A stretch of DNA of 64,000 nt from Myxococcales bacterium. Lineage in GTDB: Bacteria; Myxococcota_A; Bradymonadia; UBA7976; UBA1532. The stretch's first letter is position 1. Each line of letters starts with the position of its first letter. The position numbers and the translations under genes were made by a program. The DNA lies in the NCBI GenBank assembly GCA_002731825.1, contig PCCS01000035.1, positions 1 through 64,000 of the forward strand, read 5' to 3'. Of the stretch, positions 22,500 through 48,237 are shown piece by piece. The notes under the pieces were generated by a model. The model did not search any database. It was not told the DNA's origin and worked only from the letters and a program-made list of their open reading frames with translations.

Positions 22500-23669
22500 T
22501 CAGAGCGTCAAGTCTAAACACGCTCGATGAGTATATCCCCAGAGATCACCGAGCGCATCAAGTCCAAAGTAACCGCCTCGAATAAACTCCATCCGCATTT
22601 TGCTCAATGCGGTGACTGCATCGATGCGGCCATGCTCAAACTCATGGGAAATGAGTTTGTCGAAGGTTCTTACGATGTGATTTCCATCTTCTCGAGTAAA
22701 CGCATGGCAGATTTCCTCCCACCAAAGTGTGGGCCGTAAACGATCTACAGCCAATCCCAACCTTGGGTCTGCTCTTTCACATAAAGCCGGCTTATCACTG
22801 GCAGACTGGGTAATCTCTAGCGTCTTGGTCCAAGACACGCCGTTTGATCGAGCGCTAATATCAACCGTGGCAAGTAAGTACGACCCAACGTGCTTCCTCC
22901 GCACAAGGCAACGAAAAACAAAGTTGATGGCCGGCACATCCTCCGAAAGTGGACCGCAGTGGAAACGATGTGCGTACGGTGTAGACTCTCCACCCAAGTC
23001 ACGTAAGAACTGAGGAATTTGGGCGAATGAGAAGACATGGACTGGAAGCACTGCATCAGCCCATTGAAAACTCACAGACAGTTGAGAGACCCGCTGATTA
23101 AAAAGGGTTTTAGCCCGGGCATTTACACTCTGTGAATCAACAGTACCATCGACGGGCGCTACGAAAACGCCACCCATTAACAGGGCGGCCTGGCTCAAGA
23201 GTCGCAAGTCTAATCCGCCCGTCGTGCCAACCAGGTCGTAACGGCTCTGCCCCCGGGATGTCGCATCGATGAGTTGACCAAGCTTTTGAGTATCTTCAGC
23301 TCTTTGCTCGTGAATTAAGAGCACAAAGTGACATGCCTCGTAATCATTTTTTTTCAGCCACTCTTCACATTTTTCGATGGCGTCACAAATGCTGTCTTCG
23401 TAACTCAGCTGCGGGTCTGTGCCCATAGATGGGTCTGACAGATATGCATTCGAATCGATACCGATCTGTCCGATGGATGCAACCTGACTGGCGTTTAAAC
23501 GACCGACGTTGATGTATTTCACGACGGACTTCAGAACAGGCGGTACGTCATCAGCAACGAGTCGTATCGTCGTTGAACAACTTACCGTAACATAATCCTG
23601 ACCGATGGGGACCCAGGGTGGATCCAGCCGGGTCGAAACAACCACCTGCTCTTCGTTTGATACACTCAT
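22500..23669 (-). CDS. VWA-like protein coupled to the pseudokinase-PP2C gene
   Basis: The 389-residue cytosolic protein has no signal peptide or membrane helix. I start it at 23669, where ATG overlaps the upstream TAA (TAATG), not at an upstream in-frame codon. The middle has the rhythm of a von Willebrand A domain: a buried strand HFVLLIHEQ, then YDLVGTTGGLDLRLLSQAAL and GGVFVAPVDGT like the last strands and helix, followed by a beta-rich segment and a helical end as in many bacterial VWA proteins. The N-terminal MIDAS DxSxS is not visible, so metal binding may be lost. The coupling with a PP2C fusion suggests a regulatory partner or substrate. VWA assignment is inference. Confidence 0.6.
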   Translation of the reverse strand: MSVSNEEQVVVSTRLDPPWVPIGQDYVTVSCSTTIRLVADDVPPVLKSVVKYINVGRLNASQVASIGQIGIDSNAYLSDPSMGTDPQLSYEDSICDAIEKCEEWLKKNDYEACHFVLLIHEQRAEDTQKLGQLIDATSRGQSRYDLVGTTGGLDLRLLSQAALLMGGVFVAPVDGTVDSQSVNARAKTLFNQRVSQLSVSFQWADAVLPVHVFSFAQIPQFLRDLGGESTPYAHRFHCGPLSEDVPAINFVFRCLVRRKHVGSYLLATVDISARSNGVSWTKTLEITQSASDKPALCERADPRLGLAVDRLRPTLWWEEICHAFTREDGNHIVRTFDKLISHEFEHGRIDAVTALSKMRMEFIRGGYFGLDALGDLWGYTHRACLDLTL

Positions 23670-25528
23670 TATGCGACTCTCATTGAACTCAATTCGTCGA
23701 AACGAATGACAATGCACGAAATATTGTCACCACCCCCGCCTCGATTGGCTGCAACCATGAGTTCGAAAGCAGCCACTCGCGCTGTCGGTGCGCTCTCAAC
23801 GATGTCGGTGATAATTTCTTCCGATGCTTCCTCATCGAAACCGGCGTAGTCGACCACCCCATCAGAACATAGAACAACAGTATCGCCCGGTAAGATCGTC
23901 AATTTAACGTGCTCTGGCTCCAATGGAACGGCCATCAAGGTGCCATCATCCGAACGCTCAAAATCACCAACACACTTAACGAGCGCATTGGCACCTTGGG
24001 CCTGCACAGCTCGAGCAGGTGGATGGCCATTTCGCATGAGTTGAGTCTTTAGGTTGTGGTCCAAAGTCAGTGGCGCAATATGGCCATCACGGACAAGGTA
24101 TGCGCGGCTATCACCGATATAGGAAATCGTCGCTTGATTGCGTTCGAGAAACATCGAAACCGAGGTTGCGGCCATGATGCTTTCCAGCGGGCCCGTCGCT
24201 GGCGGCAACATGGGCGTCACCAGCTTTCCTATTCGTATGTTGGCTTGATTCAGCATCCCCTCAATAACGGATTTTCGTTCCGCATGCGTTCGACCGGTTT
24301 TTTGTTGACTGACGTTAAGATCGTGGCTGCTGTCAAAGGTCAAGGTATCATCGGGTTCAGTCTGCGGACCCGGCCCAAGAATACGGTTCCATAGTTGTGT
24401 GGCCGCTTCTTTGACGCAGTGACTCGCGAGATCACCACTTCCGTACCTCGAAATGCTGACGCCATCGCTCACCAAAAACAAACCTGTTCCAGTCAACTCA
24501 TCGAAGGCTTCGAAAAACTGGTCTTGATTGATTGGACTGTACATCGCTTTGACAAGGCCAATATGAATCTCGCTGCCATAGTCGATCTCGAGCGAACGGA
24601 CGCCGTAAGTCAGACGTCTAAGTTCCCGCTCGCTGGCTTTTCGCAGAGCGCGTAAGGCGACTTGCATATCGATGTAACGTCTGCCTGGATGGGCGGACGT
24701 CGCTTTCAATGCCACAGCCCCCAACATGGGTGGCACATCGTGTTTGTAAGCTTGGACAGGAGGCATCCTGAGTGCGTGCTGCCCGGTCCCTGGACTGGGT
24801 GGAACATCTGCCAAAATGGTGTACAAAACCATGCCCGCAAAATAGACATCAGAGCGAGCTGATAGCTGACCACCGCAACGCCCATAGACCTCCGGTGCCG
24901 CAAATCCTTTTGCAACATCGACCCAGGCAGATTGCGTGGTCTCACTGTCGAGCCGCCTCAGAATGGCTTTAGGCCCGAGGCGCCAACCAATATTGTCGCT
25001 GAAATAAAACCACTCCGGATTCGCATTACCCAAAAAATACCCACGTTTGTGGAGGTCACTAAACAATTCGAATAGTGGAAAGATGTAGCGTTTTAATTGC
25101 TCATGAATGCCATCTTTATGCGAATCATTTCGAAGGCGACTCAAGACACTGCTCAGGCTCAGTACGTCCGATAGGTCAAACAGACGATATGGGCGCTCAG
25201 ACAAATCCGTCGAATGGGCAAAGCCTAGGGTGACCGATTGCAGGTCACTGTGCGCCATTAAGTCAGCGTTATAATCCCCTTGGGTTTCATAGATACACGC
25301 GGCCACGCGGCGCCCATCCTTGAGATGACCATATCCAATTTTACGACCTCGCTCGTCGGTCAAAACGTCGTCTAATTGGAGGTCGTCCGACTCGTCGAGG
25401 GCTAGGGAAAAATCATTGGACATAGGCACAATTCGATAATCCACACCGCATTTCAGACAGAAACGCGGACCCAATATACCGGAACACAAGTCGCACGTTG
25501 ATCCCGATGACTCTGACTCTAAACTCAC
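23669..25528 (-). CDS. Zinc ribbon - pseudokinase - PP2C phosphatase fusion
   Basis: The 619-residue cytosolic protein starts at GTG. Residues 12-28 hold a CxxC...CxxC zinc ribbon (CDLCSGILGPRFCLKCG). Residues about 45-300 follow a Ser/Thr kinase fold (GFAAPEVYGRCGGQLSARSD and AGMVLYTILADVPPS match the APE, helix F and helix G region). The catalytic loop reads GNANPEWFYF instead of HRDLKPEN, and no DFG or ATP-binding Lys is evident, so it is a pseudokinase. Residues about 330-612 are a PP2C-type metal phosphatase with the metal-binding Asp motifs present: FLVSDGVS, ISYIGDSRAYLVRDG, VVLCSDGVVDY and GGGGDNISCIV. The enzyme probably dephosphorylates Ser/Thr, with the pseudokinase as sensor or scaffold. 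It is first in a coupled pair with the VWA-like gene. Confidence 0.88.
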   Translation of the reverse strand: MSLESESSGSTCDLCSGILGPRFCLKCGVDYRIVPMSNDFSLALDESDDLQLDDVLTDERGRKIGYGHLKDGRRVAACIYETQGDYNADLMAHSDLQSVTLGFAHSTDLSERPYRLFDLSDVLSLSSVLSRLRNDSHKDGIHEQLKRYIFPLFELFSDLHKRGYFLGNANPEWFYFSDNIGWRLGPKAILRRLDSETTQSAWVDVAKGFAAPEVYGRCGGQLSARSDVYFAGMVLYTILADVPPSPGTGQHALRMPPVQAYKHDVPPMLGAVALKATSAHPGRRYIDMQVALRALRKASERELRRLTYGVRSLEIDYGSEIHIGLVKAMYSPINQDQFFEAFDELTGTGLFLVSDGVSISRYGSGDLASHCVKEAATQLWNRILGPGPQTEPDDTLTFDSSHDLNVSQQKTGRTHAERKSVIEGMLNQANIRIGKLVTPMLPPATGPLESIMAATSVSMFLERNQATISYIGDSRAYLVRDGHIAPLTLDHNLKTQLMRNGHPPARAVQAQGANALVKCVGDFERSDDGTLMAVPLEPEHVKLTILPGDTVVLCSDGVVDYAGFDEEASEEIITDIVESAPTARVAAFELMVAANRGGGGDNISCIVIRFDELSSMRVA

Positions 25529-29241: not shown

Positions 29242-29877
29242 TCAGTCTTCGTCGGGAATAATTGTCAATTTATTTGAGGGTCTAGACCGGCGGTTATCGT
29301 GCGCCGCCACCGCCACCACCATGACCTGCGTGACCCTGCCTTCTGTATTTACGCGAGTGAACGTTGCGTCGACTCGATACTCAAAACTTTCTGCAGGTCC
29401 ACCGCGATCACTAAACCGAATTCCATTAACGAGATAATGGTCTGCGTCATCAACAGCCGCCCATTCAATGGTCGCGATCTGGCCCCTCATGGCTGCGAGA
29501 CGAATTCGCGGCGATGGCACAAAACCGGTTTCTCTCACAAATCGCGGATCATCGTCATCCTCGTCGATTGGCATAAACCCTGTTTCGCGCACCTGCCTAG
29601 GGTCATCAACGTGATCGGACAGGGTCGCAAGACGCCGACCGGAGATAAATGCAACCCCTCTCGATTTATCAAGCGGGTCAACTATCGTGTTATTTTTGGC
29701 CGGATTGTGATTACCATCGCCCGCTCTCCGATGAGCCGGTTCGAGCTTACTTTCGATGACCAACAGGCTATTCGCGGACGGCATCTCCTCGTCACCACAT
29801 CCCATGGTAACAAACAGGGCTAATCCAGCAATTGCATATCGCAGGGCCTGACATCCAATGTGTTGAAATCCCATCAT
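29242..29877 (-). CDS. Lipoprotein with a duplicated DDPRxVRETGF motif and a fibronectin-like domain
   Basis: The 211-residue protein has a lipoprotein signal (LALFVTMGC, Cys27). The first of two adjacent ATGs has GGAG seven bases upstream. A low-complexity linker contains two copies of DDPR(Q/F)VRETGF(M/V)P about 20 residues apart. The C-terminal 100 residues (IATIEWAAVDDADHYLVNG, then YRVDATFTRV) follow the pattern of a fibronectin-III-like sandwich. Membrane-anchored, probably outer-membrane or periplasmic. It starts three bases after the stop of the HTH-like gene, so the two are probably co-transcribed. Function unknown. Confidence 0.7.
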   Translation of the reverse strand: MMGFQHIGCQALRYAIAGLALFVTMGCGDEEMPSANSLLVIESKLEPAHRRAGDGNHNPAKNNTIVDPLDKSRGVAFISGRRLATLSDHVDDPRQVRETGFMPIDEDDDDPRFVRETGFVPSPRIRLAAMRGQIATIEWAAVDDADHYLVNGIRFSDRGGPAESFEYRVDATFTRVNTEGRVTQVMVVAVAAHDNRRSRPSNKLTIIPDED

Positions 29878-29880
29878 TGT

Positions 29881-30651
29881 CTACTCCGCCTCCGTCGCCG
29901 TGCTACCTGCATAGACAGCAAAGACATCTGAGGCTTGAGACTCATCTGCTTTCTTTTCCATTTCATTGGTTCGAGACCGAATGAATTCAAAAAGGTCGTT
30001 GCGAAACTGAGCCATGTCTTCCGGCGTTGCTTTAAAGGAAAAGGTTCGAGCTGCAGCCTCATCAGGTTGGTCCGATAGAAAGCGCCTCCGAATGGTCTCG
30101 GTCACCGCTTCCAAATGTTCATAGAGGGCGTCGACTCGTGTTTCCCAACCATCTTCGCTAAACAGGTCATGGTGACGGGCAACGATGGTGTATTTAGCCC
30201 GGCGACCTGGTCTTGATGGCAGTTCGTCAATTCGGCCCTCGCGCACGAGCGCGTCCACCGCCAAGCGCGAGCTATCAAATTCATTTGAGTGCGGTAAACG
30301 CTCCGCCAACTCTTCCAATGTCATGGGCTGTTGGCGGAGTAAATCTTCCACTCGGCGCATTAAATTGGTTTCGGTTTGGTTGAAAAAGCCGCCCTTGTTG
30401 AAACGAGCGGACAGCGCCTTTACGGTTCGAGTCGATTTCCCAAAAATCAAGGAGATGAGATTGATTGTAGAATGCTTTCGCTTTGCTTCCTGCCAGAGGG
30501 CCAGCGTCATCATGTCTTTCACAGTGTCGAGGGGGTAGTTATGTTCGACTGCCATCTTTACCGCAGGATAGAAAGACGCATACAAAACACGAAGAACGTA
30601 CTCTGGGTAGGGGATGCGTTCTTGGTCTATTTCGGGAGCATTACGACCCAT
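29881..30651 (-). CDS. Winged-helix-like cytosolic protein, possible transcription regulator
   Basis: A 256-residue soluble protein with an SD (GAGGTG) six bases before the ATG. Residues about 15-85 are helical with LISLIFGKSTRTVKALSARF, which looks like a helix-turn-helix. Residues about 95-160 (TLEELAERLPHSNEFDSSRLAVDALVREGRIDELPSR, split here as TLEELAERLP and LAVDALVREGRI) look like a second winged helix. The overall plan resembles DUF6502-like proteins, without certainty. The C-terminal third is helical and acidic. It is divergent from a small gene cluster at 30885. A role in regulating the neighbouring lipoprotein is inference. Confidence 0.6.
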   Translation of the reverse strand: MGRNAPEIDQERIPYPEYVLRVLYASFYPAVKMAVEHNYPLDTVKDMMTLALWQEAKRKHSTINLISLIFGKSTRTVKALSARFNKGGFFNQTETNLMRRVEDLLRQQPMTLEELAERLPHSNEFDSSRLAVDALVREGRIDELPSRPGRRAKYTIVARHHDLFSEDGWETRVDALYEHLEAVTETIRRRFLSDQPDEAAARTFSFKATPEDMAQFRNDLFEFIRSRTNEMEKKADESQASDVFAVYAGSTATEAE

Positions 30652-32287: not shown

Positions 32288-32419
32288 CCATTTTTCCTCA
32301 TCTGATGGGTCGACTGCAAATTGCGACGGTGCTTTGTCCGTGCTAGATTGTGTCCGATTACTCAAGCAGGGCGTAGCAAGCAGCCGTAGATAACCTACCG
32401 CTGATTGCCCTTGCGTTTC

Positions 32420-35194
32420 ATGGAGCGGCATTTAATTTTGAACGGCAATCACCCGTGCTTCGCTGAAGCAGGAGACAACGATGGGGGTGGCGAGCAAAGC
32501 ATCGCGACCGATCTGAGCGGTCAGGATCTTGGCGGTCGATTTAGGCTTGATGAATTGCGGATAGACACGGCCGCGGGTCAAACATACTCGGGCATTGATA
32601 CGGCTGGTGACGCACCGGTTTGGGTCTTCGTCGCAGCAGACGCATTCAAAAGTGATGATCCCGAGTTCGCTGCCTTGGAAGACACAACGGCCAAGTCTTT
32701 CGAAATCGATCATAGTAATGTTTTAGCCCTTCGCCATATCGATCAAACGGACGATGGTCGCACCTATATCGTGAGCGAAAAGCAAGAGGGCTTGTCATTG
32801 GCCGAAAAGCTGACGGCCGATGGTCCAGTTATGCCCCGTGTTGCGGGCCGGATCACGCAAGAACTGCTTCAGGCACTGAACGCGGTCCATGCGACGGGCA
32901 TGATTCACCAAGGAATACGTCCGGACACAATTTTTCTGGTACAGGACGATGTGGGCGTAGAACGGGCCGTTTTAGGTGGCTTGGGTCAGCACCATACACT
33001 GGCATTGGCATTGGCATCACAGAGGGAGAAGTCGGCCTGCAGGGCGCAGCCAGAATACTTGAGTCCTGAAGCCGTCGCTGGAAAAGACTTAACACAGCAG
33101 ACCGATCTCTATTCTCTCGGGTTGGTTCTATACGAGATGTTAACGGGCCGAACAGCCTTCGGGGGTGGCGACTTTCGTAAGACAGCTCGACAGCATGCGA
33201 TCACCCGACCATTGAGTCCACGAATTGTCCGTCGACAGGCGCAGATTCCGCGTTCACTCGACGCCGTGGTGATGAAGTTGTTGGAGAAAACACCAACACG
33301 TCGGTTTGCATCTACCGAAGAGGTCGCAGGGGCCTTAGACGCGGTTGCCAACGAAGACGACAGCAGCCGGAATCGGACCTCACTTAATTTCAAGCCGGTC
33401 GCAAGTCGAAAGCCTGAGCCCGTGAGCGCAAGCAGCACCGACTCAACTGACGCAGCTGATGACGCTGAAATATCGAAGGCGCCGGCTGATGAAGCCCCGA
33501 ACATGGATGCGGCACCTGATGGCGAACAAACCAAGCACTCCAAGGATGAGGCAGATCACAGCGACGCGTCAACCGAAAGCAAACCTGACCAGAGCCGGGA
33601 GCGCCCAAGAACGGAACCCCTGGTTTCCATCAGTTCAAAAATTGCAGTCAGTAAAGCGCCTGAGCCATCAGAACCGCCTGTCTCAGATTCTGATTTAGGT
33701 AACCTGGAACGAGAGTCCACAAAGTTCAAGGAAACCGGCCGCTGGTTTGTGGAAAGCGTCGACGAACTCCAGGCGACGAATCCAAATCTTGCAGCTCAGT
33801 TTGACGAATACACGATTCCAAAAGACCGGAATATTTTCCCCATCATTATACTCGTATTGGGCCTTATCGTTGGCGGTTTGGTTTGGTCCTCCTATGACTC
33901 TGATGACGGGACCGCCTCGCCAGACGACTCGACTGAAATAGCAACCGCCGCTGATAAGAAAGAGCAAGACCGTCGAGCGGAAATCGCGGCCAGGGCAGCG
34001 GCGTCGGCAGAGGTCGATGCAAGAGCCAAGCCGCCAGCCCAAGATGTGGGGCCGGTTACACGTGATGCCCAGGTGCCACAGAGCGATGCAGCTAAGAGCC
34101 CACTGACGGCCGAAGAGATAAAGCGAAACGAGCAGGTAGATGCCCTTCGGAAACAGGCGTTGACGGCCATCGAAAAGAAAAACTGGCAGGGCAACAGTGA
34201 TGCCTTGCTTGAGAGCATTCTGGAATTGAAAAAAGTCGATCCGGAAAACGGGTTTGATGGCCCTTTAGCCGAGAAGGTTAAAGACGCAGTGCTGCTCAGC
34301 GTGACGGAGCTTACGACTGCATCGGACTTTGCAGGGGCTAAACGAAATGCTCGCTTGGCCAAAACCTTGATGCCCGGGCTACAAATTGCACACACCATGC
34401 TCAAGCGTGTCGAAACATTGGAAGCCGCTGCGGAAAAGAAAAAAGCCGCTGATGACAAAAAGCGACTCGCCGATGAGAAAAACAAAGCTGATGAGCGAAG
34501 ACGCAACGAAGCCGATGAGAAAAAACGGCTTGCCGCCGAGAAGAGAAAAGAAAAGAACGCTGAGAAGAAAAAGCAAGACGCTGAAAAAAAGCGCATCGCT
34601 GCTGAGACGAAAAAGCAAGACGCTGAAAAAAAGCGCATCGCTGCTGAGAAGAAAAAGCAAGACGCTGAAAAAAAGCGCATCGCTGCTGAGAAGAAAAAGC
34701 GAGACACGGACAAAAAGCGACTTGCTGCGGAGAAGAAAAAGGCCCAGGACACAGAGAGAAAGCGCCTCGCTGACGAGAAAAAACGTCTCGCCGCTGAAAA
34801 GAAGAAGCAGGACGCCGAGAAGAAAAAGGTGGTGGCAACTTCAGATCCATATCGCGATGCTCAGAATCATCTGAGTAAGGGGCGTTGGGGCCAAGCCAAG
34901 GCCGCCTTTAACAAATCGATTCAATCGAACCCCAATCGTGCAGGCGCTTACGCGGGTCTTGGACGAGTTGCCTTCCAACAGGGGCAGAACAAAATGGCGG
35001 CTAAGCACTACGCGAAGGCTGTTCGTCTCAGTAGCGGGAACGTGAATTATCGAATCAAACTTGGGCTGGCGTACTTTAAACTCGGTCGCTATGACCGGGC
35101 AAAGAAACATTGGAACAAAGCCTTGTCTCTCAGCCCAGGTAACAAGAAAGCCACACGGTATCTGAAACTGCTGGAAAAAAAGGCACCTAAGTAA
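32420..35194 (+). CDS. Membrane-spanning pseudokinase with long coiled coil and periplasmic TPRs
   Basis: A 924-residue protein. Residues about 40-310 follow a Ser/Thr kinase fold (ALNAVHATGMIHQGIRPDTI, then PEYLSPEAVAGKDLTQQTDL and YSLGLVLYEMLTGRTAF). HQGIRPDT replaces HRDLKPEN, DFG is absent (LGGLGQH), and no ATP-binding Lys is seen, so catalysis is unlikely. A disordered acidic linker (about 312-465), one membrane helix (about 472-490), a Lys/Glu/Ala helix with near-identical repeats (about 670-804) and two to three TPRs (about 810-924) follow. The kinase fold should be cytosolic and the rest periplasmic. Start is uncertain: ATG 32420 or TTG 32405, neither with a good SD. Likely a transmembrane scaffold or sensor. 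Confidence 0.85.
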   Translation: MERHLILNGNHPCFAEAGDNDGGGEQSIATDLSGQDLGGRFRLDELRIDTAAGQTYSGIDTAGDAPVWVFVAADAFKSDDPEFAALEDTTAKSFEIDHSNVLALRHIDQTDDGRTYIVSEKQEGLSLAEKLTADGPVMPRVAGRITQELLQALNAVHATGMIHQGIRPDTIFLVQDDVGVERAVLGGLGQHHTLALALASQREKSACRAQPEYLSPEAVAGKDLTQQTDLYSLGLVLYEMLTGRTAFGGGDFRKTARQHAITRPLSPRIVRRQAQIPRSLDAVVMKLLEKTPTRRFASTEEVAGALDAVANEDDSSRNRTSLNFKPVASRKPEPVSASSTDSTDAADDAEISKAPADEAPNMDAAPDGEQTKHSKDEADHSDASTESKPDQSRERPRTEPLVSISSKIAVSKAPEPSEPPVSDSDLGNLERESTKFKETGRWFVESVDELQATNPNLAAQFDEYTIPKDRNIFPIIILVLGLIVGGLVWSSYDSDDGTASPDDSTEIATAADKKEQDRRAEIAARAAASAEVDARAKPPAQDVGPVTRDAQVPQSDAAKSPLTAEEIKRNEQVDALRKQALTAIEKKNWQGNSDALLESILELKKVDPENGFDGPLAEKVKDAVLLSVTELTTASDFAGAKRNARLAKTLMPGLQIAHTMLKRVETLEAAAEKKKAADDKKRLADEKNKADERRRNEADEKKRLAAEKRKEKNAEKKKQDAEKKRIAAETKKQDAEKKRIAAEKKKQDAEKKRIAAEKKKRDTDKKRLAAEKKKAQDTERKRLADEKKRLAAEKKKQDAEKKKVVATSDPYRDAQNHLSKGRWGQAKAAFNKSIQSNPNRAGAYAGLGRVAFQQGQNKMAAKHYAKAVRLSSGNVNYRIKLGLAYFKLGRYDRAKKHWNKALSLSPGNKKATRYLKLLEKKAPK
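34562..34687 (+). repeat. Three tandem 42-bp repeats in the coiled-coil region
   Basis: Copies at 34562-34603, 34604-34645 and 34646-34687 are identical except for one base (AAG to ACG in copy two). Each encodes 14 residues, about two heptads, built from EKKKQDAEKKRIAA. A degenerate fourth copy follows. Near-identity at the DNA level points to recent slippage or unequal crossover, so length may vary between strains. Confidence 0.92.
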
Positions 35195-44121: not shown

Positions 44122-45006
44122 ATGGGCGAATTATCACGAGAACTTCTGGCTGAAATCAGGCGAATTGAGATCATCACTCGGCGCCTGGTCAATCAGCAAA
44201 TGGCGGGTCATTACCACTCCGTATTTAAGGGGAGAGGTATGTCCTTCGATGAAGTTCGCGAATATCAACCCGGTGATGACCCACGAACAATCGATTGGAA
44301 CGTGACTGCTCGAACGGGTGACCCGTACGTAAAAACCTATGTGGAAGAGCGCGAGCTGACGGTTATGATCATGGTTGACATGAGTGGGTCCATGGCATTT
44401 GGCACAGTCCGAGACGAAAAACGGGTGGTCGCCGCCCGCTTGGCTGCAATGATGGCCTTCTCTGCAATCAGCAATGGCGACCGGGTCGGGCTGATCGCAT
44501 TTACAAATGAGGTCGAATGCTACGTTCCGCCAAAAAAAGGTCGAAAACATGTGCTTCGGATTATCGATGAGATTCTCCGCTTCGACCCATCTGGAGCCGG
44601 GACCGATCTGAATCAGGCCCTGGAATTTGTCGGCCGTGTCAACAAGAGAAAAGCGGTCATTTTTCTAATCTCGGACTTTTTAGACACAGGCTATGAGCGC
44701 GCACTGCATATTACCGCGCGCCGCCATGACCTCATTCCGCTGAGCATTGTTGATCCGGCCGAACATGTGATCAGTCAGCTCGGGTTAGTCATATTTGAGG
44801 ACCCTGAGACGGGTGCGAGACATGTCATCGACACGGCCAGGTCCAGCGTTCGGGATGCCTTCGCGAGAAAGCAGACAAAGGCGAATACTGAGCGGGACCA
44901 AACATTCCACCGCTATGGCTTAAGTCCAATCGAAGTCAGAACAGACGCCAAAGACTATGCAGCCCCGCTGGTCAACTACTTCAGAATCAGGGCGAGGCGA
45001 GCATGA
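44122..45006 (+). CDS. DUF58 protein with VWA-like fold
   Basis: A 294-residue cytosolic protein of the DUF58 family, the standard partner of MoxR. The family signature GRGMSFDEVREYQPGDDPRT is near residue 35, followed by IDWNVTARTG. The VWA-like part has MIIMVDMSGSM (MIDAS DxSxS) near 90 and AVIFLISDFLD near 175. It starts four bases after moxR and overlaps the next gene (ATGA). It probably binds the MoxR ATPase and metal. Confidence 0.93.
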   Translation: MGELSRELLAEIRRIEIITRRLVNQQMAGHYHSVFKGRGMSFDEVREYQPGDDPRTIDWNVTARTGDPYVKTYVEERELTVMIMVDMSGSMAFGTVRDEKRVVAARLAAMMAFSAISNGDRVGLIAFTNEVECYVPPKKGRKHVLRIIDEILRFDPSGAGTDLNQALEFVGRVNKRKAVIFLISDFLDTGYERALHITARRHDLIPLSIVDPAEHVISQLGLVIFEDPETGARHVIDTARSSVRDAFARKQTKANTERDQTFHRYGLSPIEVRTDAKDYAAPLVNYFRIRARRA

Positions 45007-46121
45007 GTCCACACAAGGTCTTAGTCTGGGCACTCATGGCTCAAGTCTCTTTGGCCCACGCGGCCGATGGAGGTCTCCCAGGCCTCGGGTCGACCCCGGC
45101 GGATGCCCAAGTGCAAGCTGAGGTTAAAAAAGTCGCTAAAGGCCCGCCTCCAGCTGTCAAAATGGAGTGCCTTCCGAACCCAGTCCTGATCGGACAACCG
45201 GTGGTGTGTGAACTGATCATCATTCACCGAGAGGACGTCACACTCACCGTGACAAGTCCGGCGGACATCACCCCGCTATCAGCCCCTCCGGCCCAAGCCC
45301 ATGGTGAGGGTTTACTCAAGTCTGTTCGACGGCTGCAAGTCATTCCTAAATCCATGAAAAAAGTGCATATCCAAGAATTGGTAATCGTCTGGACAGAAGC
45401 CGATGGTGGTATAGGAGAATACCCAGTATCCGAGCTGAGAATCCCCGTGCAATCGATGATGACCGGCGTCACTGATCCAAAGCCGAGAACCTACGATGTG
45501 CCGGTCCTAGACTCAGAGGCAGCGGACTTACAAAGCGAGAAAAAACGCTTCTTCAACGCACACGGTCCAATCCCATATCGCGTGACCAATTGGCCTTTGC
45601 TGATCACCTTGCTGGTTTTGGTTGGTGGAGCGGTCTTCACGCTGCTGGGCATTTGGCTCAATCGCTGGCTCAAAGCACGGCAAACTGAACCGGCTCCATG
45701 GGTTGATCCCAGGCCGGCTCACATCATTGCCTATGAGGCCCTTGATCTGCTGCGGTCAGAACGCTTGCCAGACAAGGACCTCTTCGAAGACTATTACGTG
45801 CGTATCTCGGAAATTATCCGAGCCTATTTGAAAAAGCGGTATGGCATTAACGGCCTCGAAATGACCAGTGAAGAGATCCGGACCTGGGCTGCACGAACCC
45901 GTTTGGGTCCTGACCCTGAGCGCGCACTCACTGATTTCCTCTATGAGACCGACATTGTGAAATTCGCCAATGTAAAGCCCAACATGGTCGAGATTGAAAT
46001 CATTACAAAACAGGCACATGGACTCATTGAATTGACGCGTCGATCAGAGACTGAACAAGGGGGTGCTGCCGACGAGGGGACACGGGAACAGGCCGCTCTC
46101 AATGGAGGCACAACTCAATGA
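45003..46121 (+). CDS. Membrane protein with BatD/DUF4381-like traits in the bat operon
   Basis: The 372-residue protein has a signal peptide (about 1-20, ending AHAAD), a periplasmic beta-rich part (about 45-165, KMECLPNPVLIGQPVVCELI at its start), one membrane helix (about 198-220) and a helical cytosolic tail (about 230-345: LFEDYYVRISEIIRAYLKKR, then FLYETDIVKFANVKPN). The tail matches DUF4381-like proteins that lie with moxR and DUF58. Start and stop overlap both neighbours (ATGA), indicating strong coupling. It may bring the ATPase pair to the membrane. Confidence 0.8.
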   Translation: MSPHKVLVWALMAQVSLAHAADGGLPGLGSTPADAQVQAEVKKVAKGPPPAVKMECLPNPVLIGQPVVCELIIIHREDVTLTVTSPADITPLSAPPAQAHGEGLLKSVRRLQVIPKSMKKVHIQELVIVWTEADGGIGEYPVSELRIPVQSMMTGVTDPKPRTYDVPVLDSEAADLQSEKKRFFNAHGPIPYRVTNWPLLITLLVLVGGAVFTLLGIWLNRWLKARQTEPAPWVDPRPAHIIAYEALDLLRSERLPDKDLFEDYYVRISEIIRAYLKKRYGINGLEMTSEEIRTWAARTRLGPDPERALTDFLYETDIVKFANVKPNMVEIEIITKQAHGLIELTRRSETEQGGAADEGTREQAALNGGTTQ

Positions 46122-47176
46122 ATTTTGCCGACGCCCCATTGTTCGCTCAGATCCTCTGGTGGATGCTGGTTTTCATCAGTCTTCTTGGTGCGATTTTCGG
46201 CTGGTTGAAACGCTGGCGGCATACAGCCTCCATGACCTATCCAGCAGATCTGAGAGTCACAGGCTTAAAACCAGGCCTCCGTGCGAGACTCGTGCATCTG
46301 CCTTTTATCCTTCGAACGATCGCCATCATTGGGTTGCTATTGGCATTGGCCCGTCCACAGCTTACGGAAGCGGAAACGGCAGACGTTGAAGGTATCGATA
46401 TCGTGGTTGCCTTCGATATGTCGGGGTCTATGGAACAGGTCGATATCAGCGAGGAAAAGCTAATCGCACTTCAAAATGCCGGCGAGGCACCGGCTAACCG
46501 CTTTATCGGGGCCGTTGAGGTGTTGCGCAACTTCGTCAAGACCCGACAATACGACCGGGTCTCCTTGGTCGTCTTCGGTAAGGAGGCCTTTCTGCAATTC
46601 CCCCTGACCTTGGACTACGGGGTCATGCTTAATATCCTGTCAAAGATGGCGTTGGGGGATATCGATGGCACAGGGACAGCCATCGGCAATGCGCTGGCCA
46701 TGAGCGTCGCTCGCTTCAAAGATAGCTCGGCGTCAACTCAGTTAATCATTTTGATCACCGATGGCGAAGATAACGGAAGCAAGATTGCGCCCAACGAAAT
46801 GGCAAAACTGGCCGCGGAGCGAAAAATTAAGGTTTTTCCAATCCTTGTCGGCAGCGAAGACCAAACCTGGCGCCCAACAGAAGCAGTCGATATTTTCACA
46901 CGGCAACGGCGGTACGAAAAAGTTGCATCTCAAGTCAACCCAAGTCTTCTCGAAGACATTGCTGAGACAACCAATGGACGCTTTTATCGGGCAGCAGATA
47001 CCGACTCTCTGGCCAAAGATTTTGTTGATATCTTGGACGAATTTGAGAAGTCACGACTGGTTGATTATGCAGCCGCTGAGAAGACGGAGTTATTCCATTT
47101 TTTCCTATGGCCGGCTCTTGGCCTTCTCCTGCTCGAGCTTTTGCTTTCACAGACCATTCTGAGGAGATTTCCGTAA
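46118..47176 (+). CDS. batA: BatA, membrane VWA protein
   Basis: A 352-residue inner-membrane protein: two N-terminal helices (about 10-30 and 62-80), a VWA domain (about 92-300) with MIDAS DMSGSM, GTAIGNAL and ILITDGEDNGS, and one C-terminal helix (about 328-348, LFHFFLWPALGLLLLELLLS). The VWA domain faces the periplasm. Bat proteins support stress survival and envelope integrity in several groups. Coupled to both neighbours (ATGA before, TAATG after). Confidence 0.93.
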   Translation: MNFADAPLFAQILWWMLVFISLLGAIFGWLKRWRHTASMTYPADLRVTGLKPGLRARLVHLPFILRTIAIIGLLLALARPQLTEAETADVEGIDIVVAFDMSGSMEQVDISEEKLIALQNAGEAPANRFIGAVEVLRNFVKTRQYDRVSLVVFGKEAFLQFPLTLDYGVMLNILSKMALGDIDGTGTAIGNALAMSVARFKDSSASTQLIILITDGEDNGSKIAPNEMAKLAAERKIKVFPILVGSEDQTWRPTEAVDIFTRQRRYEKVASQVNPSLLEDIAETTNGRFYRAADTDSLAKDFVDILDEFEKSRLVDYAAAEKTELFHFFLWPALGLLLLELLLSQTILRRFP

Positions 47177-48237
47177 TGCGCTGGGGCTTAGGAGACGTAT
47201 GGTGGCTCATGGTGATACCGATCTTCAGTATTGCCTTGTTTGCCTATGGCCATTCGGTCAGGCGAAGCATCGTGCGCCGTGCGGGATCCGTCCAACTCAT
47301 CCAAAAACTCATTTCGTCACTGTCTGTCGAGCGCCGCTTGGTCAAGCAACTCCTATTTGTCCTCGCGATCACGCTGATCGTCCTTGCGGCGCTGAGACCT
47401 CAATACGGCCGACGTCCCCAAACCCTAAGACAGACCGGGGTCGATATCGCGATCGCCTTCGACATCAGTAAATCCATGCTGGCCAGAGATGTCCACCCAT
47501 CACGATTAGACGCGGCGCGAACGCTGCTAAGCCAACTCATGGAGGAACTAAAAGGTGATCGAGTGGCCTTGGTTCCCTTTGCCGGAATTGCATTTACACA
47601 ATCTCCGCTGACAGCCGATCAGGGTGCGGTTAAACTGTACCTCGACAGTCTCGATCCTGCACAAATGCCCGTTGGTGGAACAAACTTAGCTATGGCTCTC
47701 GAAGAAGGCATCAAGCTCCTGACAGGTAAACAAGACCGTGGTGATAAAAGCAGTCGAAGCCGTGTTTTGCTCCTGATTACGGACGGTGAAGATGTGGCAA
47801 CTGACCAAGGCGAAGCGGCCAAAAAAGCGGCCACCAAAGCGGCTAAGGAGGGCATCACGGTCTTCTCTATAGCGGTCGGCACGCGGGTCGGAGAGCCCAT
47901 TCCCGTCGTCAATGATGATGGCTCTCATGCCGGCTATCAAAAGGACAGTTCAGGTAAACCAGTGTATAGCCGGCTCAACATCGACCTCTTAAACACGCTG
48001 ACGAGTCTATCCGACCCAGAAGGCAAAAAGAGCCGGCGTGTTTTCGAGTTCGATGGTCAACAGGATACCCTCAGTATGGTCGTAGACGAACTCGACAGCC
48101 TTCAAAAATCAGCGCTGCAAGCATCCATGCGCCATACCTACAATGAGAAGTATCAATACTTTCTATTCCCAGCCCTGTTACTGCTTCTATTGGAGAGCCG
48201 ACTCAGTGAACGTCGGGGCCGCGGAGTAAGATCATGA
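47176..48237 (+). CDS. batB: BatB, membrane VWA protein
   Basis: The 353-residue protein starts at ATG 47176, inside the batA stop (TAATG); an earlier in-frame codon would overlap batA by 70 bases. It has N-terminal helices (about 8-28, 55-73), a VWA domain with MIDAS DISKSM near residue 96, GTNLAMAL and LLLITDGEDVATD, and a C-terminal helix (KYQYFLFPALLLLLLESRLS). It differs from BatA by a longer insert near residue 250 (VVNDDGSHAGYQKDSSGKPV). BatA and BatB probably form a complex. Confidence 0.93.
   Translation: MRWGLGDVWWLMVIPIFSIALFAYGHSVRRSIVRRAGSVQLIQKLISSLSVERRLVKQLLFVLAITLIVLAALRPQYGRRPQTLRQTGVDIAIAFDISKSMLARDVHPSRLDAARTLLSQLMEELKGDRVALVPFAGIAFTQSPLTADQGAVKLYLDSLDPAQMPVGGTNLAMALEEGIKLLTGKQDRGDKSSRSRVLLLITDGEDVATDQGEAAKKAATKAAKEGITVFSIAVGTRVGEPIPVVNDDGSHAGYQKDSSGKPVYSRLNIDLLNTLTSLSDPEGKKSRRVFEFDGQQDTLSMVVDELDSLQKSALQASMRHTYNEKYQYFLFPALLLLLLESRLSERRGRGVRS

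Follow-up and report, generated by a model that had tools for sequence, protein, structure and literature searches.

A zinc ribbon–pseudokinase–PP2C protein and its predicted ArnB-fold partner in Bradymonadales-type bacteria, a possible ArnA–ArnB-like pair

In the window, a 64,000-nucleotide stretch of DNA from a Myxococcales bacterium that was analysed as a whole, we find two overlapping genes that appear to form one conserved unit. Gene A fuses a zinc ribbon, a pseudokinase and a PP2C phosphatase in a single protein, and gene B encodes a VWA-like partner that is predicted to have the ArnB fold and no longer has the MIDAS, the metal site of VWA domains. A search for homologous pairs and their neighbours found A and B adjacent in all 15 same-order loci, 12 of which belong to the window's own family; judged by this conservation, the ribbon, kinase fold and PP2C with their coupled partner are a real feature, and chance is excluded. 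The nearest model for the pair is ArnA–ArnB, not TerY-P. By analogy with it, A and B may act as one cytoplasmic phospho-switch, ArnA–ArnB-like with a built-in phosphatase, a reading to which we give slightly less than an even chance.

Table 1. Features of gene A and gene B, with positions numbered along the window
Feature	Positions	Strand	Residues	Details
Gene A, zinc ribbon–pseudokinase–PP2C	23669..25528	-		619 aa, GTG start
Zinc ribbon of A	25448..25495	-	12-27	C-x2-C-x8-C-x2-C
Putative pseudokinase domain of A	24593..25387	-	48-312	hhalign, residue table, PDB profile matches
PP2C domain of A	23696..24589	-	314-611	Foldseek, invariant metal ligands
TAATG stop/start overlap, A to B	23667..23671	-		A stop 23669–23671, B start 23667–23669
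Gene B, predicted ArnB-fold VWA-like partner	22500..23669	-		389 aa, ATG start; AF2, Foldseek
N-terminal beta strands of B, part of predicted split beta-sandwich	23559..23645	-	9-37	model secondary structure, conservation
Degenerate VWA domain of B	23100..23528	-	48-190	MIDAS lost
C-terminal part of predicted beta-sandwich of B	22797..23090	-	194-291	model, tripartite fold match
Predicted C-terminal helical bundle of B	22524..22790	-	294-382	model, conservation

Domains and residues of the two proteins

The first-pass annotation had described a CxxC...CxxC zinc ribbon, a kinase fold with GNANPEW in place of the catalytic loop and a PP2C with its metal motifs, all fused in one protein that is coupled by TAATG to a VWA-like protein, and its coordinates and motifs were correct except for the start of B taken from the open reading frame list. 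That start, a GTG at 23717 (giving 405 aa), was rejected as too early, and the ATG at 23669 was preferred because it agrees with the conserved coupling of A to B: in 13 of the 15 same-order loci, gene B starts inside or directly at the stop of A. The four ribbon cysteines of A (C12, C15, C24 and C27) are found in all 12 same-family A proteins, versus none of the three in sister family f2. The ribbon region has low confidence in the AF2 model of A (pLDDT 79.7 overall), and the model suggests that it is probably flexible.

The kinase fold of A is assigned from the topology of the model and from sequence profiles. When the same-family kinase regions were compared, as a profile, with nine active kinases encoded in the host genome, the match had a probability of 99.5% (hhalign, E=5.6e-23), and PknB-type proteins were matched in the PDB (E=2e-13). 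In the profile comparison LGNANPEW stands under HRDLKPAN, with GNANPEW aligned to RDLKPAN, and there is no DFG. The HRD and DFG aspartates are absent from all 15 same-order proteins, as is any lysine at the expected beta3-strand place, and every class-wide relative whose region aligned also lacks the HRD aspartate; the usual motif of the family is LGxxDPxE where HRDLKPxN is expected. By its residues, therefore, the kinase domain of A is dead. Elsewhere in the host genome, which has 46 kinase-domain matches, a 929-aa kinase-like/TPR protein (window 32405-35194, + strand) is probably a second pseudokinase, because IHQGIRPDTIF takes the place of HRDLKPxN.

The metal ligands of the PP2C domain (D336, D355-G356, D473, D556 and D601) are all present in A. 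They are invariant in the 15 same-order proteins and are kept in all 42 aligned proteins of the class (A and 41 relatives), with the last position of one protein unaligned. Pfam PP2C matches A above the cut-off, and a Foldseek search with the A model gave only PP2C proteins among the 50 matches listed, with PstP and tPphA at the top (TMt about 0.82). Many PP2Cs have a phosphate-binding arginine; A has no clear counterpart of it, and an invariant lysine (Lys327) lies nearby. Because the PP2C ligands are intact and the kinase has lost its HRD and DFG aspartates, the reading that the phosphatase is the only active enzyme of A is well supported by residues. A special kinship of A with the phosphatase family PRK14559 of NCBIfam was considered and rejected, since only the PP2C end matches and the genome has further PP2Cs that match it better. 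More distant PP2C proteins (L100-L117 and L119) have a kinase-like part that is degraded further, and an N-terminal segment like YHSAFGFARV.

The VWA-like nature claimed for the partner is upheld by its predicted structure (pLDDT 86.2, pTM 0.85), which from end to end can be matched to VWA proteins. The best Foldseek matches were 4FX5 (TMq 0.64), ArnB from the ArnAB complex (0.59) and vWA2 (0.55), over about 410-425 alignment columns and with E from 1e-16 to 4e-13, followed in the ranking by inter-alpha-inhibitor and Sec24. The first three of these proteins have in common a VWA domain, a split beta-sandwich and a helical bundle (PMC6509490, PMC12852372), and it is because the full-length model matches such tripartite proteins that we call B, as modelled, an ArnB-fold protein. 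At the level of sequence, a profile of 12 B proteins found mostly VWA proteins in the PDB, such as Rpn10, 4FX5, TRAP and TFIIH p44, as weak matches (E from 0.009). No Pfam VWA model matched B, scans of B with Pfam, NCBIfam and PADLOC were empty, and matches to DENR_N and TPR_12 were dismissed as noise.

The DxSxS site of B reads INVGRL. A MIDAS residue (DxSxS or the Asp of TDG) is kept in none of the 12 same-family B proteins, versus all 13 relatives in families f5-f7. Within the B family the VWA domain has the lowest mean pairwise identity (25.9%) and the helical domain the highest (35.8%). Decay of B as a pseudogene was rejected, as the gene is open in all 12 same-family loci and has conserved residues in common. 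No match to B came from a pattern search of named genomes, because B diverges too fast.

Pairing, neighbourhood and longer cassettes

The A family is found class-wide in Bradymonadales-type deltaproteobacteria. In most families of the class A stands without an adjacent B and can therefore work on its own; one of these is f6, which holds Lujinxingia-type genomes. In one f6 genome, for example, a lone pseudokinase–PP2C gene follows genes for a putative lipoprotein, a TPR protein and a third protein (L063:10967-14785). In sister family f2 the partner of A is very divergent and still related to B (94%, E=1e-7), the likeness covering the second half of the VWA domain, the sandwich and the helices. 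Except for a second copy in f7, the branching of the A tree agrees with the bacterial families.

In most same-family loci the pair is flanked on one side by genes for a 256-aa protein, a lipoprotein and an HK–RR–HK series, and on the other by PpiD-like and mreBCD/PBP2/RodA genes. The sister-family pair has other neighbours than these, and the 256-aa gene remains near the pair in two of the three sister-family loci. In the window, the 256-aa protein, for which Pfam gives no confident match, and a putative lipoprotein of 211 aa are encoded at 29242-30651 (- strand), and both are possibly linked in function to the pair. A Pfam scan of nine neighbouring genes found no Ter-like gene. In a plasmid search with A only the PP2C part was matched, which gives no sign of a plasmid origin. 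Because the neighbourhood is stable and the A tree agrees with the bacterial families, the A–B locus is core and vertically inherited, and looks unlike a mobile defence cassette. Farther along the window (44362-47790, + strand), three VWA matches lie close together and are, as far as seen, unrelated to the pair.

Searching with the B profile also finds MIDAS-intact ArnB-fold VWA genes in other families, and these adjoin a ZnR-FHA gene and a Ser/Thr kinase gene. In the ZnR-FHA protein of L167, for example, the FHA domain was matched with E=1.3e-8 and a RanBP2-type zinc finger with E=0.0024. In f7, a row of genes (L172:5083-10837) encodes a pseudokinase–PP2C protein, then a MIDAS-intact ArnB-fold VWA protein, a ZnR-FHA protein, an active Ser/Thr kinase and a second kinase-like protein; the same row is found in L170 and L171, and in L173 it is cut by the contig end. 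By analogy, this cassette looks like a bacterial composition of ArnA-ArnB-ArnC type with a PP2C added. A second type of MIDAS-intact VWA gene occurs in L162-L169 and L174 (families f5-f7); in most cases ZnR-FHA and kinase genes lie with it, and no PP2C adjoins it. A ZnR-FHA query matched all seven f5-f7 positive controls and none of the 13 same-family genomes, and no FHA domain is found in A, though A has a ribbon.

Since the sister-family relatives of B lie in longer cassettes and the ZnR-FHA gene is missing in the window's family, the pair looks like a reduced form of a longer switch. This agrees with the view of the first-pass annotation that the module is a compacted, kinase-dead relative: active-kinase cassettes exist in sister families, and A has lost the aspartates of its own kinase. 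The tree of B has long branches and does not separate an origin from type-1 VWA genes of the sister families from an origin from type 2. HMM scores for B (about 130-157 bits with type 1 versus 66-90 bits with type 2) favour, and do not prove, descent from a type-1 gene.

A proposed switch and competing explanations

In the proposed switch, B would be an ArnB-fold scaffold made up of a VWA domain, a split beta-sandwich and a four-helix bundle. Because its VWA metal site is lost, B would no longer grip ligands through it, and the beta-sandwich and helix surfaces would be left for docking. The N-terminal zinc ribbon of A may tether A to B as the zinc finger of ArnA does on ArnB, the dead kinase may position or gate the complex, and the PP2C would strip phosphates from B or the clients that it holds, these phosphates having been added by one of the many unlinked Ser/Thr kinases in the genome. 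The ArnAB crystal structure shows the zinc finger of ArnA in contact with three parts of ArnB, namely its helical domain, the linker and the beta1–beta2 loop (PMC12852372), and in Sulfolobus the zinc finger docks on ArnB in the unphosphorylated state, while the FHA domain binds the phosphorylated helical domain (PMC12852372, PMC7472852). Phosphorylation of the helical domain at several Thr sites is a mark of ArnB-type proteins. A docked ribbon fits the invariant P17 in the beta1–beta2 loop of B, and the helical domain being its most conserved part. Formation of the ArnA/B complex is independent of the MIDAS, and binding of PP2A alone dissociates the complex (PMC7472852), which fits both the loss of the MIDAS in B and the phosphatase partner. 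The analogy with ArnA–ArnB is thus one of fold, position and composition.

The strongest point against the analogy is that sister family f2 keeps the pair and has lost the ribbon; a tethering role for the ribbon would require that some other contact took its place there. The spacing of the ribbon (C-x2-C-x8-C-x2-C versus C-x2-C-x10-C-x2-C in ArnA), the lack of an adjacent B in most families of the class and the missing counterpart of the PP2C arginine also count against an ArnA-like switch. Some of the same observations would suit A as a free-standing PP2C, whose own substrates are recruited by the pseudokinase and the ribbon, with B as a regulatory subunit (an anchor or an inhibitor) that turns it on and off and is not a phospho-substrate. 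Families such as f6, where no B is near A, suggest a core job of A that is independent of B, and the faster evolution of B (end branch 1.65, vs 0.96 for A) is what an adaptor might show; however, strict pairing across the order, the start/stop overlap and a fold of ArnB type speak more for a scaffold that depends on phosphorylation, and we regard the free-standing phosphatase as possible but doubtful.

That the module instead tunes cell-envelope growth, with the PP2C opposing Ser/Thr phosphorylation of the neighbouring MreBCD/PBP2/RodA machinery, is suggested by the flanking genes of most same-family loci, and has a precedent in the control of peptidoglycan synthesis by the MviN pseudokinase and FhaA of M. 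tuberculosis (PMC12599244). However, an opposite-strand gene lies between the pair and the mre genes, the pair of the sister family has different neighbours, and a neighbourhood by itself is weak evidence, so we consider this explanation unlikely. More improbable still is the idea of the first-pass annotation that the pair is a reduced stress or anti-phage module of TerY-P type. In TerY-P (PMC11090510), the VWA protein is TerY-like, the PP2C is a protein of its own and the Ser/Thr kinase carries a zinc ribbon at its C-terminus. These domain classes and a zinc ribbon are also present in the window's pair, and modules of this type have been reported as antiphage (PMC11090510, PMC7699616). The kinship is not supported: the ribbon of A is at the opposite, N-terminal end, its kinase is dead and fused to the PP2C, and B has a predicted three-domain ArnB fold and no MIDAS. 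The lack of Ter genes among the nine scanned neighbours, the stable housekeeping synteny on the mreBCD/PBP2/RodA side and a gene tree in step with the bacterial families also speak against it, as does PADLOC, which matched A with kinase models only and B with none, and which may not contain TerY-P models.

We return to the ArnA–ArnB-like switch as the preferred reading. More broadly, and tentatively, the class may carry ArnA–ArnB-like switches, one of which the window's order would have condensed to a MIDAS-less ArnB-fold scaffold and a ribbon–pseudokinase–PP2C subunit that both docks and erases, with only dephosphorylation hard-wired. The pair links a class-wide family of bacterial pseudokinase–PP2C proteins, for which Pfam and NCBIfam have no model as a unit, to a predicted scaffold fold of ArnB/Sec23-like kind. 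It would illustrate the shedding of the kinase from a kinase–phosphatase switch that keeps its eraser, would assign to bacterial pseudokinases a testable role in partnership with phosphatases, and would suggest that regulation of ArnA–ArnB type extends beyond archaea. Since Lujinxingia vulgaris, a cultured member of the class, has the class-wide A-family protein, the system is partly open to testing.

Comparison with known systems

Bacterial pseudokinases (ActPs1-3, GLW, CP1, DYD and DLHK) are like A in having lost catalytic motifs within a Ser/Thr kinase fold, and the text of the 2025 review that describes them does not mention PP2C (PMC12599244). Fusions of PP2C and kinase in one chain are known from Pseudomonas, where the PP2C is N-terminal (PMC1262709), whereas in A it is C-terminal and the kinase is dead. 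In actinobacterial GAP1-N2 neighbourhoods, genes for a zinc-ribbon kinase, a PP2C and a standalone vWA protein are adjacent; unlike in gene A, the kinase and the phosphatase are separate, both are described as active, and they lie beside a GTPase (PMC7159879). Beside the TerY-like VWA protein of TerY-P, B stands as a VWA-fold protein that is predicted to be tripartite and is MIDAS-less. Its best structural match, 4FX5 (caci_2163, a VWA protein of Catenulispora acidiphila; 411 columns, 13% identity), has an intact MIDAS (PMC6509490), as have ArnB and vWA2, whereas B has lost it.

ArnA–ArnB of Sulfolobus acidocaldarius, which works with the kinases ArnC and ArnD and with PP2A, is too remote from the window's pair for a sequence-based match. 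The bacterial pair differs from it in lacking the MIDAS, the FHA domain and a dedicated active kinase, and in a phosphatase that is of PP2C type and is fused to the ribbon and pseudokinase. The likeness lies in the tripartite fold predicted for B, in a ribbon that is carried by the partner, and in a Ser/Thr phosphatase as part of the system (PMC12852372, PMC7472852).
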